The notes beneath the pieces were generated by a model, which was not told the origin of the DNA, did not search any database, and saw only the letters and a list, made by a program, of their open reading frames with translations. The position numbers were made by a program, and so were the translations under genes. From Nitrospina sp. (lineage in GTDB: Bacteria; Nitrospinota; Nitrospinia; Nitrospinales; JACRGP01), in assembly GCA_024648695.1 (NCBI GenBank), contig JACAVV010000035.1, positions 1-46,742 on the forward strand: a stretch of 46,742 nt of DNA. Direction: 5' to 3'. This document shows positions 29,234 to 32,052 of the stretch, in pieces. Each line of letters starts with the position of its first letter. The first letter of the stretch is position 1.

Positions 29234-29347
29234 ACCCATCAAATTCGAGCCAGGGCAATTGGATGCCTTTGGTGAAAATTAATCGCGAGTAAAAGAATTG
29301 CCTGCGCGCCCTCCGCGTTGGATCTTTGTACAGGAGAGGACATTGAT

Positions 29348-29770
29348 ATGGAGGAAAAATCCAGATTTTTAAAGGGTCCGGACGGAACCATTTACGATAC
29401 GAAAACCAGTCTTACCTGGAAGGTCAACGATTCCTGGCTGGACCTGGAGCGTGAAGTTACCTGGTACGAAGCTGAGCGTTATTTGGAAGAAACCAATCAA
29501 ACCCAGTTTGGCGGACATAGCGATTGGCGGATGCCCACCGTTCAAGAGGCATTATCCCTGTTTGATAAAGATAAACTGAATAAAGACTTTAAAAACGGGG
29601 ACATTCACCTCGATCCCCAATTCGCGCCCGGTGGCGGAAACACCACATGGACCTGCGATACACGGGGAGAACGTGACGCCCAAATTCTTTTTTATGTTAA
29701 TGGCTGTGCCTATTGGTACGAAAAAGACGATAAAACCATCTCGCATTCAGTACGCTTGGTTAGACGTTAA
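29348..29770 (+). CDS. DUF1566 (Lcl C-terminal-like) domain protein
   Basis: This is a 140-residue protein that is essentially one DUF1566 domain: DTKTSLTWKVN near the start, SDWRMPTVQEALSLFD in the middle and SHSVRLVRR at the end are its hallmarks. There is no signal peptide, unlike many members that are surface-exposed or exported. The ATG at 29348 is preceded by AGGAGAGG; a TTG at 29318 lies upstream of that site and is not used in my reading. The function of the domain is unknown. Confidence 0.85.
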   Translation: MEEKSRFLKGPDGTIYDTKTSLTWKVNDSWLDLEREVTWYEAERYLEETNQTQFGGHSDWRMPTVQEALSLFDKDKLNKDFKNGDIHLDPQFAPGGGNTTWTCDTRGERDAQILFYVNGCAYWYEKDDKTISHSVRLVRR

Positions 29771-30075
29771 AAGATTGTGAAGGGCAGGGGGGAGATTGTC
29801 CCCCTTGCACAAAACTCCTGTAACCTTGAAAGGTATTTGGTAATTTTCTTGATCTCATCCGAAAAAAATTGACAACTGTCTAATTTTTTCTTACCTTAGG
29901 TTGGAAGCCTTGGTAAACTTTCCTCAATTCCTATGTAAATCAGTCGCTTACCTGAACCATCATTTTAATTTTTTTCTATATTTTATTTCCTGACTAATGA
30001 TCCTATTTTGAGCTGTTTCCATGGTCAGGAATTTGGTCAAAAAAGTAAACCTGAAAAGGTTTCAAGGGCAGACCT
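29771..30075. other. 305-base gap ahead of the carH-like gene
   Basis: The stem AGGGGG (29786-29791) / CCCCCT (29800-29805) follows the DUF1566 gene without a T-run and may be its terminator. The promoter for the carH-like gene is at 29869-29897; the remaining roughly 175 bases look like an A+T-rich leader. Confidence 0.6.
29869..29897 (+). promoter_or_regulatory. Candidate autoregulated promoter of the carH-like gene
   Basis: Consensus TTGACA (29869-29874), 17 bases, then TACCTT (29892-29897). The -35 hexamer overlaps GACA-AC-TGTC (29871-29880) within an AATT...AATT frame, a small palindrome of the kind MerR-family repressors bind. The promoter call is moderate; the operator is an inference. 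Confidence 0.5.
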
Positions 30076-31008
30076 ATGAGTACTAGCGAGTCTAAACCGG
30101 AAGGATTAAAAATTGGTAATCTGGCGGAGGTCACCGGTATCAGTGTGCACACCTTACGCATGTGGGAACGGCGGTATGGTGTTCCCAAGCCCGTACGTCT
30201 TGCTTCCGGCCATCGTCGATACCCTCGCGAGGAGGTTCCAAGGTTATGCGCCGTGGCGCGGGCGTTGGAAGCGGGTTACCGGGCCAATCGCGTGGTCACC
30301 GCCACTCTGGATGAATTAAAAAGTTTATTGCATGAACCTCGTCCTTCTCTCGGGAACAGCGCGTCGGAGTCTGCCGGAAAACTTGAAGAGGCGGAAGTTT
30401 CCAAAAACCTGATAGAAGGTTGGATTGAATCGTCGCTGTTGTTTGAAAGCCAACCTTTGACCAACAGTTTTTATGAAGAATGGGGGCGCCGGGGACCGCA
30501 TGCGTTTGTTGAGACTTTGGCAATCCCTTTTATCCATGAAATAGGAATCCGTTGGCAGGCGGGTGAGATGACGGTTTCCCAGGAGCATTTCGCGTCTCAG
30601 CATCTTAGTGATTTTTTAGGAACAAGCTGGCGCAATTTGAATGAACGCAACCAGGGCGCTCCGATTTTGTTCACCACGTTGCCCGGAGATGATCATTGTT
30701 TGGGGCTTCAGTTAGGTGCCGTGATGGCCGCTTCTGCCAGACGCCGTGTCGTTTTTCTGGGCACCAACACCCCTTGTGAAGAAATCATATCGGCGGTGTT
30801 GAAATCACAATCGCAAGCTCTTTGCGTTGGCGTATCGGTGACCATGCAATCTTATCAGGTTTTGCCTCACCTCAACAAAATCCGGCAAAGGTTGGAGGAT
30901 TCTTTTCCAATCGTGTTGGGGGGTAAAGGGGTTCCGGAGGATATGCCGGGCTTTTTGTATTTTGAAAACTTCCAGGCTTTTTACGATTGGTGTCTTGGAT
31001 TAAAATAG
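30076..31008 (+). CDS. MerR-type regulator with B12-binding domain (CarH/LitR-like)
   Basis: Residues 10-80 are a MerR winged-helix DNA-binding domain (LKIGNLAEVTGISVHTLRMWERRYG, HRRYPREEV). Residues about 110-185 are the helical cap of B12 photoreceptors with the W-x9-EH motif: W160, E170, H171. Residues about 195-308 are a Rossmann B12-binding domain with the cobalt-ligand motif D205-x-H207-x-x-G210 and GGKG near 288. In CarH, adenosylcobalamin holds a DNA-bound tetramer in the dark and light breaks it. The residue after the cap tryptophan is Q161, whereas Thermus CarH has H132, the upper axial ligand of the light state. No carotenoid gene is in the window. It lies 39 bases before a COG0523 GTPase gene. 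Confidence 0.88.
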   Translation: MSTSESKPEGLKIGNLAEVTGISVHTLRMWERRYGVPKPVRLASGHRRYPREEVPRLCAVARALEAGYRANRVVTATLDELKSLLHEPRPSLGNSASESAGKLEEAEVSKNLIEGWIESSLLFESQPLTNSFYEEWGRRGPHAFVETLAIPFIHEIGIRWQAGEMTVSQEHFASQHLSDFLGTSWRNLNERNQGAPILFTTLPGDDHCLGLQLGAVMAASARRRVVFLGTNTPCEEIISAVLKSQSQALCVGVSVTMQSYQVLPHLNKIRQRLEDSFPIVLGGKGVPEDMPGFLYFENFQAFYDWCLGLK

Positions 31009-31047
31009 CCACATTAATTGCTTTATTAAATCGGTTCTTCTAAAATT

Positions 31048-32052
31048 ATGTCTCATGGTTCATCATCAACGGGAATCCCCGTTACTTTACTATCCGGGTT
31101 TTTAGGCTCCGGAAAAACCACCCTGCTCAATTATATCCTGCAAGCTAACCACGGCAAGCGCATCGCCGTGATCGAAAACGAATTTGGTGAAATCGGGATC
31201 GATCATGATTTGGTGATTGGTGTTGATGAGGATATTTTTGAGATGAGCAACGGTTGTATCTGTTGCTCGATCAAAGGTGATCTTGTCGAAACCCTGAACC
31301 GGCTTTTGGATCGTAAGGATAAATTCGATTCCATTTTAATCGAGAGCACCGGTCTCGCTTCGCCGGGACCCATCGCGCAGGCTTTTTTGGTGGAGGAAAC
31401 CGTTCAACACGGGTTGTACCTCGATGGCATCATCACCCTGGTCGATGCCAGGCACATTGAACAGCAACTTGTGGATGCCGATGTGGCCTGGGAGCAAATT
31501 GCATTTTCCCATGTAATCTTGATCAATAAAATCGATCTGGTCACGAAGGAAGAGTTGAAGGCGGTGGAGGAACGCGTTCGCCAGATCAACCCGGCGGCCG
31601 GGGTTCTGATTTCGGAACATGCCCAAACGGACCTGGACCGCATTATGAACATTGGAGGATTCGAACTGCATTCCGGTTTGGAAGATCTTCTGCAGGAGCA
31701 CGATCACCACGATCATGAACTCGGAAACGATGCGTACAGCGCACAAGGAATCCAATCCGTATCCATCACGGATTCAGGAACACTTGATATCAACCGGTTT
31801 AATATTTGGCTTCAAACGCTTTTAATTGTTGAGGGGATGGATGTGTTTCGCGCCAAAGGCGTATTGAATCTACCCGATACCGACCAGCGCTATATTTTTC
31901 AAAGTGTCTATATGATGTTTGATGGCGAGCATGACCGTCCCTGGGGCGATAGTGAACGTCAGAACCGTATTGTTTTTATAGGCAGAAACCTGGACTCCGA
32001 AAAACTCAAGCAGGGGTTTCAAAATTGTTTGCTGGAACCGGACTCCCATTAA
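31048..32052 (+). CDS. COG0523 (CobW/YjiA/ZigA) family metallochaperone GTPase
   Basis: This is a G3E-family GTPase that delivers or inserts metal ions. The Walker A motif GFLGSGKTT is at 17-25. ENEFGEIGIDHDLV and the metal-binding C70-I-C72-C73 (NGCICCSIKGDL) follow, and NKIDLV provides base recognition. A histidine-rich loop, EHDHHDHE, lies at about residues 218-225, and a CobW C-terminal domain closes the protein. The metal could be zinc, iron or cobalt and cannot be assigned from sequence. It follows a B12-dependent regulator gene, which makes a cobalt/cobalamin link worth considering. Its end overlaps the open frame, but not the likely start, of the MscS-like gene. Confidence 0.92.
   Translation: MSHGSSSTGIPVTLLSGFLGSGKTTLLNYILQANHGKRIAVIENEFGEIGIDHDLVIGVDEDIFEMSNGCICCSIKGDLVETLNRLLDRKDKFDSILIESTGLASPGPIAQAFLVEETVQHGLYLDGIITLVDARHIEQQLVDADVAWEQIAFSHVILINKIDLVTKEELKAVEERVRQINPAAGVLISEHAQTDLDRIMNIGGFELHSGLEDLLQEHDHHDHELGNDAYSAQGIQSVSITDSGTLDINRFNIWLQTLLIVEGMDVFRAKGVLNLPDTDQRYIFQSVYMMFDGEHDRPWGDSERQNRIVFIGRNLDSEKLKQGFQNCLLEPDSH

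Follow-up and report, generated by a model that had tools for sequence, protein, structure and literature searches.

CarH homologues are said to be defined by the motifs Wx9EH and [DE]xHx2[GP]x41SxT/Vx22-27GG (PMC8156234). The light state of the wild-type Thermus thermophilus CarH (TtCarH) domain, which is bis-His, is described in PMC10442372 as peaking at about 359 nm, compared with 352 nm for the H132A variant; the same account has H132A still mostly tetrameric in light and mentions an earlier report of its disassembly. A different substitution, G192Q, is described in PMC8221060 as turning TtCarH mainly dimeric. As operators, CarH binds tandem 11-bp direct repeats, according to PMC9304148, where CarA is characterized as being without the cap Trp, and class II LitR is presented in PMC9758184 as retaining one of two B12 domains and as being driven by a LOV protein. 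Position 132 is occupied by other residues in light-responsive proteins named in PMC11796333, which gives Arg for CtMerR, Gln for SasPcob and Tyr for AbDPcob, and also the SignatureFinder elements GxxW, EH, GxxH and GxxxP; for SasPcob, PMC10979010 describes a monomeric light state with water/hydroxide-ligated Co(III). With Arg, Gln and Tyr proteins in print, proteins without His132 are already known from nature.

We compared with these systems a gene in a 46,742-nt stretch of DNA from a Nitrospina sp. (contig JACAVV010000035.1, hereafter the window). A sequence-only reading had taken it for a CarH-like B12 light sensor that lacks the usual histidine ligand of the light state and has over its own −35 box a palindrome that would fit dark repression. 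The features of the locus are collected in Table 1.

Table 1. Features of the CarH-like locus, with positions in the window
Feature	Position	Strand	Basis or remark
Lcl C-terminal-domain protein	29318-29770	+	PF07603, 9.5e-20; directly upstream of the CarH-like gene
Candidate operator, CarH-type half-sites arranged as an inverted repeat, AAATTGACAACTGTCTAATT	29866..29885	.	
TTGACA, candidate −35 box	29869..29874	+	Inside the inverted repeat
TACCTT, weak candidate −10 box	29892..29897	+	17-nt spacer
CarH-like MerR-B12 regulator, 310 aa	30076..31008	+	ORF, Pfam, alignment, model
Adenosyl cap W-Q-x8-E-H, codons 160-171	30553..30588	+	Codon 161 CAG (Gln) at the TtCarH His132 position
Lower axial ligand motif D-D-H-C-L-G, codons 205-210	30688..30705	+	His207 at the TtCarH His177 position
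Codon 252 GGC (Gly)	30829..30831	+	Ser in 121/128 aligned rows
CobW-type GTPase	31048..32052	+	39 nt downstream, possibly co-transcribed

Domains, fold and family placement

The window protein carries a MerR-type DNA-binding head (MerR_1, PF13411, residues 12-69, 2.1e-13), a B12-binding_2 domain (138-177) and a B12-binding domain (PF02310, 197-293, E 3.1e-8), and its closest PDB sequence match is the T. thermophilus CarH/LitR chain 3whp (E 2.3e-24). An AlphaFold model with 55 relatives of the window protein as additional input has a mean pLDDT of 93.5, and its top Foldseek match is full-length CarH. In the structural comparison the top rows are the light and dark states of SasPcob (Z 21.3 and 21.2), tied by the rule of the comparison tool with the TtCarH B12 domains at Z about 21 (for 8c73, Z 21.0 and rmsd 2.5 Å over 194 residues). 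All four SignatureFinder elements are present as well, and, judged from domains, these elements and a gap-free alignment to TtCarH, the gene is a real CarH-like B12 regulator that had been read correctly at the residue level. The NCBIfam equivalog model for CarH, NF052513, scores it at 114 bits, under the curated cut-off of 400 (TtCarH reaches 510 and a His-bearing paralogue from the same genome 131), and for that reason we label it CarH-like rather than CarH. The window protein does not show the CarA trait of a lost cap Trp, since W160 is present, nor the class II LitR trait of keeping only the four-helix B12 domain, since the PF02310 domain is present.

The Wx9EH cap motif is complete (W160, E170, H171), and so are D205-x-H207-x2-G210 and G282-G283 of the second motif, in which Ser is replaced by Gly252 and residue 254 is Ser. 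The equivalent Ser in methionine synthase is part of a ligand triad. Among the aligned rows Gly252 is common only to L152 and L158 besides the window. In the 128-row alignment described below, the window protein has Arg at the position of TtCarH G192, Asn at that of D201 and Asp at that of R176, the last two being the salt-bridge pair of the TtCarH oligomer; with these oligomer-contact positions changed, the oligomer of the window protein may differ from the Thermus tetramer. The lower ligand itself varies elsewhere: a six-row Nitrospinota subclade (L023, L026, L027, L028, L032 and L089; SH-aLRT 99) keeps W-x9-EH with Tyr in place of His177, and L018 has Gln at the same position. Such Tyr-177 and Gln-177 proteins would need another way of holding cobalamin.

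Gln161 at the His132 position

The residues W160, Q161, E170-H171 and D205-D-H207-C-L-G210 all lie where the sequence-only reading had put them. Its central claim, that Gln follows the cap Trp at the place of His, is borne out by phmmer, which sets Q161 on Thermus CarH His132 without a gap, and by the MAFFT alignments, which concur. The structural comparison, which gives ranges rather than residue pairs, fits the same assignment, as the aligned ranges begin at residue 107 of the model and 78 of the chain, an offset of 29 that equals 160-131. We looked in the alignments for another histidine at the H132 position and found none there. As substitutes, His154 was discarded since it aligns to Arg125 instead (at which 6 of 128 rows, window included, have His), and so were His142 and His176, which lie elsewhere in the two cap helices as seen in the AlphaFold model.

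Residue 132 among relatives

The cap Trp is present in all 109 distinct rows of a first alignment, made up of Nitrospinota genomes (window included) and 80 named loci that were the best 80 of 573. The residue that follows is Glu in 34 rows, Ala in 32, Met in 14, Ser in 9, Leu in 8, Arg in 4, Gln in 3, Val in 2, and Cys, Asp and His in 1 each. A second alignment reaches 128 rows through 9 further Nitrospinota proteins and 10 proteins encoded in plasmid records, one of which is TtCarH; it has Trp131 in 127 rows, Glu141 in 126, His142 in 128, His177 in 120 and His132 in 6, counts that come from a window-biased sample. The census was gathered with window-like queries (best 80 of 573) and supplemented by the 9 Nitrospinota loci, the 10 plasmid records and further loci. 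It leaves out the loci L055-L083, identical copies, and any ORF that is shorter than 180 aa or contains ambiguous letters. Within this sample residue 132 varies widely, and the cap and the lower ligand are mostly constant. Since the sample is window-biased and holds no CarH from Bacillus, Streptomyces or Myxococcus xanthus, 6 of 128 is not a family-wide rate.

In a quick tree, which has some long rows and SH-aLRT as its sole measure of support, all six His132 rows, one of which (Gemmatirosa) is without the Trp, fall inside a 16-row clade that holds TtCarH (SH-aLRT 98). The window protein belongs to a 39-row Nitrospinota clade (SH-aLRT 95) in which residue 132 is Glu in 33, Ala in 3, and Val, Arg and Gln in 1 each, with no His. 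A second Nitrospinota CarH-like clade has Phe after the cap Trp in six members (L198-L203) and His in three (L003, L196, L197). The description of His132 as the usual residue does not hold up against 6 of 128 rows in this biased sample and 0 of 39 in the window's own clade: most of the relatives examined are likewise without the histidine, so its variation looks ordinary, and in the window's clade its absence is the rule, with precedent in print. According to PMC9304148 the His is present in many myxobacterial CarH proteins; this "many", and the 6 of 128 rows here, argue that His132 is not family-defining. Our literature searches, which were not aimed at that alone, found no census of residue 132.

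Promoter and candidate operator

The palindrome over the −35 box is there as proposed, TTGACA lying inside an inverted repeat composed of two facing copies of the published half-site nAnnTnnACAn. When the 305-bp gap upstream of the gene was shuffled with dinucleotides preserved, a convergent half-site pair appeared in 9 of 5000 shuffles and a looser GACA/TGTC palindrome in 42 of 5000. Across the 4.2-Mb genome the strict inverted half-site pattern occurs at 2 places (four rows, both strands), the second of them inside an ORF, and the reversed control gives the same counts. The palindrome is therefore unlikely by chance in the gap, yet carries no genome-wide signal. A palindrome regulon was discarded, as AATTGACANNTGTCNAA, allowing up to 2 mismatches, matched the genome 23 times forward and 12 times reverse, and the control 14 and 15 times. 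A sigma-70 consensus scan of 29700-31100 called no promoter. A riboswitch in the long leader was likewise rejected (29600-31200 matched nothing in Rfam at E values up to 1), as was a structured leader, the folding being no better than that of shuffles (z −0.10).

Tandem operators were sought as two TnnACA sites 11 bp apart, and none is present on either strand of the 305-bp gap. In a first set of 33 upstream regions, which includes that of L004 (a MerR head only), the window alone has the inverted pair and no region has a tandem one; a second set, of 33 regions taken at operon starts and carH-like genes, yields a loose inverted pair for the window, L041 and L051 and a tandem one for L037 and L041, both sets being counted without shuffles. 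Among 69 non-Nitrospinota upstream regions the inverted pair is found in 3 (mononucleotide shuffles: mean 0.75, largest 3) and tandem TnnACA also in 3 (mean 0.38, largest 2). Other palindromes lie upstream of L006/L037 and L042, and no single operator design emerged across the upstream regions of relatives.

Of the dark repression proposed at this site, binding at the −35 palindrome may well occur, and self-repression of the gene at its own promoter is plausible on the DNA pattern, whereas the tandem repeats of described CarH operators are not found in the gap. The palindrome could instead be fortuitous, with no self-regulation and with the protein acting on promoters elsewhere. We regard this as a substantial possibility, though not the one we would choose, and it is compatible with the best explanation of the protein; the near-match and strict-pattern counts, which resemble those of the controls, and the rarity of the pair upstream of relatives speak for it, against which stand the low frequency of such a pair in gap shuffles and its position on TTGACA.

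Genomic neighbourhood and possible targets

The CobW-type GTPase encoded behind the CarH-like gene has a CICC motif and a His-rich stretch; none of the other 20 regions mapped (two from the same genome) has a clustered homologue. The gene after it encodes a protein of 654 aa that matches no Pfam family at E 0.001. The same genome encodes two further CarH-like proteins, L002 with Glu and L003 with His at position 132, as well as a Cob_adeno_trans (PduO-type) adenosyltransferase and a photolyase. The L003 gene (region L035, 9573-11489) adjoins a gene that combines 2-thiouracil-desulfurase and DUF1722, and a photolyase is encoded at a distance of about 6 kb. As a carotenoid target, the single PF00494 match was rejected, since it fits best as squalene synthase (152 bits; model cut-off 287) with CrtB models lower, and a furan-lipid target was rejected on finding no DUF1365 match in the genome, which is 97% complete. 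With no evident phytoene synthase and no DUF1365, the genome makes neither a carotenoid target nor a furan-lipid target evident.

A common operon in relatives comprises a Pfam-less protein, a DUF1731/polyketide-cyclase-like epimerase, a CbiX-like protein, DUF4149 and a lipocalin; the window copy is not part of this conserved operon. Genes for a lipocalin, an SDR and a thiol peroxidase are found in some Nitrospinota operons. A cluster of Pfam-less proteins with repeats discernible by eye (c1; L034 10947-12330 and homologues) is often encoded directly upstream of the Nitrospinota CarH-like gene. By BLAST on the fetched flanks, a UfaD-UfaO-UfaM-like trio (FAD oxidoreductase, DUF1365 and CMAS methyltransferase) is complete in 27 of 69 non-Nitrospinota loci, a count made without a random-locus control and with 22 of the 69 loci shorter than 12 kb. 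Two full trios were confirmed by Pfam, one at L096 and the other at L041, which is a Nitrospinota locus; at L146 the same check confirmed the FAD gene. UfaM, UfaD and UfaO are described as making furan fatty acids in Rhodobacter (PMC7380195), and PMC9758184 counts UfaM with the genes that light induces in Pseudomonas putida under class II LitR. These neighbourhoods support a light or photo-oxidative role for the His-less relatives.

A possible mechanism and its alternatives

On balance we lean towards the window protein being a repressor that acts in the dark with AdoCbl bound and that light would inactivate by way of a water/hydroxide cobalt state, without a bis-His latch. In the mechanism that we infer, the class-I LitR/CarH-like repressor would bind adenosylcobalamin in the dark with His207 under the cobalt, W160, E170 and H171 would cap the adenosyl group, and the repressor would oligomerise. 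The oligomer would sit on the inverted repeat that covers the −35 box of its gene, holding down this gene and perhaps the CobW GTPase gene behind. Light would cleave the Co–C bond and, residue 161 being Gln, the upper site would be taken by water/hydroxide, as in SasPcob, rather than by a second histidine, and loss of the adenosyl group alone would loosen the oligomer and free the DNA.

The dark-repressor reading is favoured by the TtCarH-like domains, the four SignatureFinder elements and the structural matches to SasPcob and TtCarH, by the adenosyltransferase and photolyase in the genome and the light- or oxidation-linked neighbours of relatives, and by the light response of a natural Gln protein and the 9/5000 frequency of the convergent pair. 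It is weakened by Gly252, the low NF052513 score and Arg/Asn/Asp at G192/D201/R176, as well as by a repeat that is non-tandem and rare upstream of relatives, a gene outside the conserved operon and the lack of an evident target. The suggestion that light-state chemistry could differ draws its support from precedent, namely SasPcob with its Gln and TtCarH H132A, and by analogy may hold here. The same H132A variant indicates, again by analogy, that light might leave the DNA binding of a Gln protein unchanged, since H132A stays mostly tetrameric in light (PMC10442372).

This behaviour of H132A leads to an alternative in which the window protein reports AdoCbl supply rather than light, its oligomer surviving photolysis for want of the His132 latch. 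The CobW-type GTPase gene directly behind would suit such a role, but SasPcob, with Gln at the same place, is described as going monomeric in light, and His-less relatives adjoin light and oxidative-stress genes; we consider this alternative unlikely. Drift to B12 independence, with a partner protein in control as in CarA or LOV-driven class II LitR, would account for the loss of the motif Ser and for the altered oligomer-contact positions, but is quite improbable given that none of W160, E170, H171 and H207 has been lost; in the accounts cited above, by contrast, CarA is without the Trp and class II LitR has retained a single B12 domain of the two.

There is also a broader and rather doubtful proposal, in which the Thermus bis-His state would be a trait of one branch and most B12 photoreceptor repressors, the window protein included, would switch without an upper protein ligand. 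The bound water/hydroxide cobalamin could then be re-adenosylated in place, making the switch resettable, and the Nitrospinota Glu (here Gln) would tune it. If this were true, the best-studied CarH light-state chemistry would not be representative of the family, and the natural Gln, Glu, Ala, Met and Phe proteins would form a ready series for testing the purpose of the histidine. By itself the window protein is an ordinary member of this His132-replacement series.

Comparison with known systems

T. thermophilus CarH/LitR (5C8D, 5C8E, 5C8F) shares with the window protein the MerR head, the four-helix cap with W-x9-EH and the Rossmann domain with [DE]xHxxG, in a whole-length match of 29% identity; relative to it, the window protein has His132 replaced by Gln, the motif Ser replaced by Gly, and Arg/Asn/Asp at G192/D201/R176, and its candidate operator is inverted rather than tandem. 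The photocobilin SasPcob (8J2W, 8J2X) has Gln at the His132 place like the window protein and is its top structural match over the B12 region, in a tie with TtCarH, but differs in its globin-type biliverdin-binding part and, going by its description in PMC10979010, apparently has no DNA-binding head. CtMerR of Chloracidobacterium thermophilum (8JBS, 8JBT; Z 20.0-20.1) is a MerR-family protein whose B12 domain is also without His132, and is described as a light-responsive tetramer; it differs from the window protein in having Arg at 132. Members of the Nitrospinota CarH-like clade, to which the window protein belongs, often lie in an operon with the epimerase/CbiX/lipocalin set and mostly carry Glu at 132 (33/39), whereas the window copy carries Gln and lies outside that operon.
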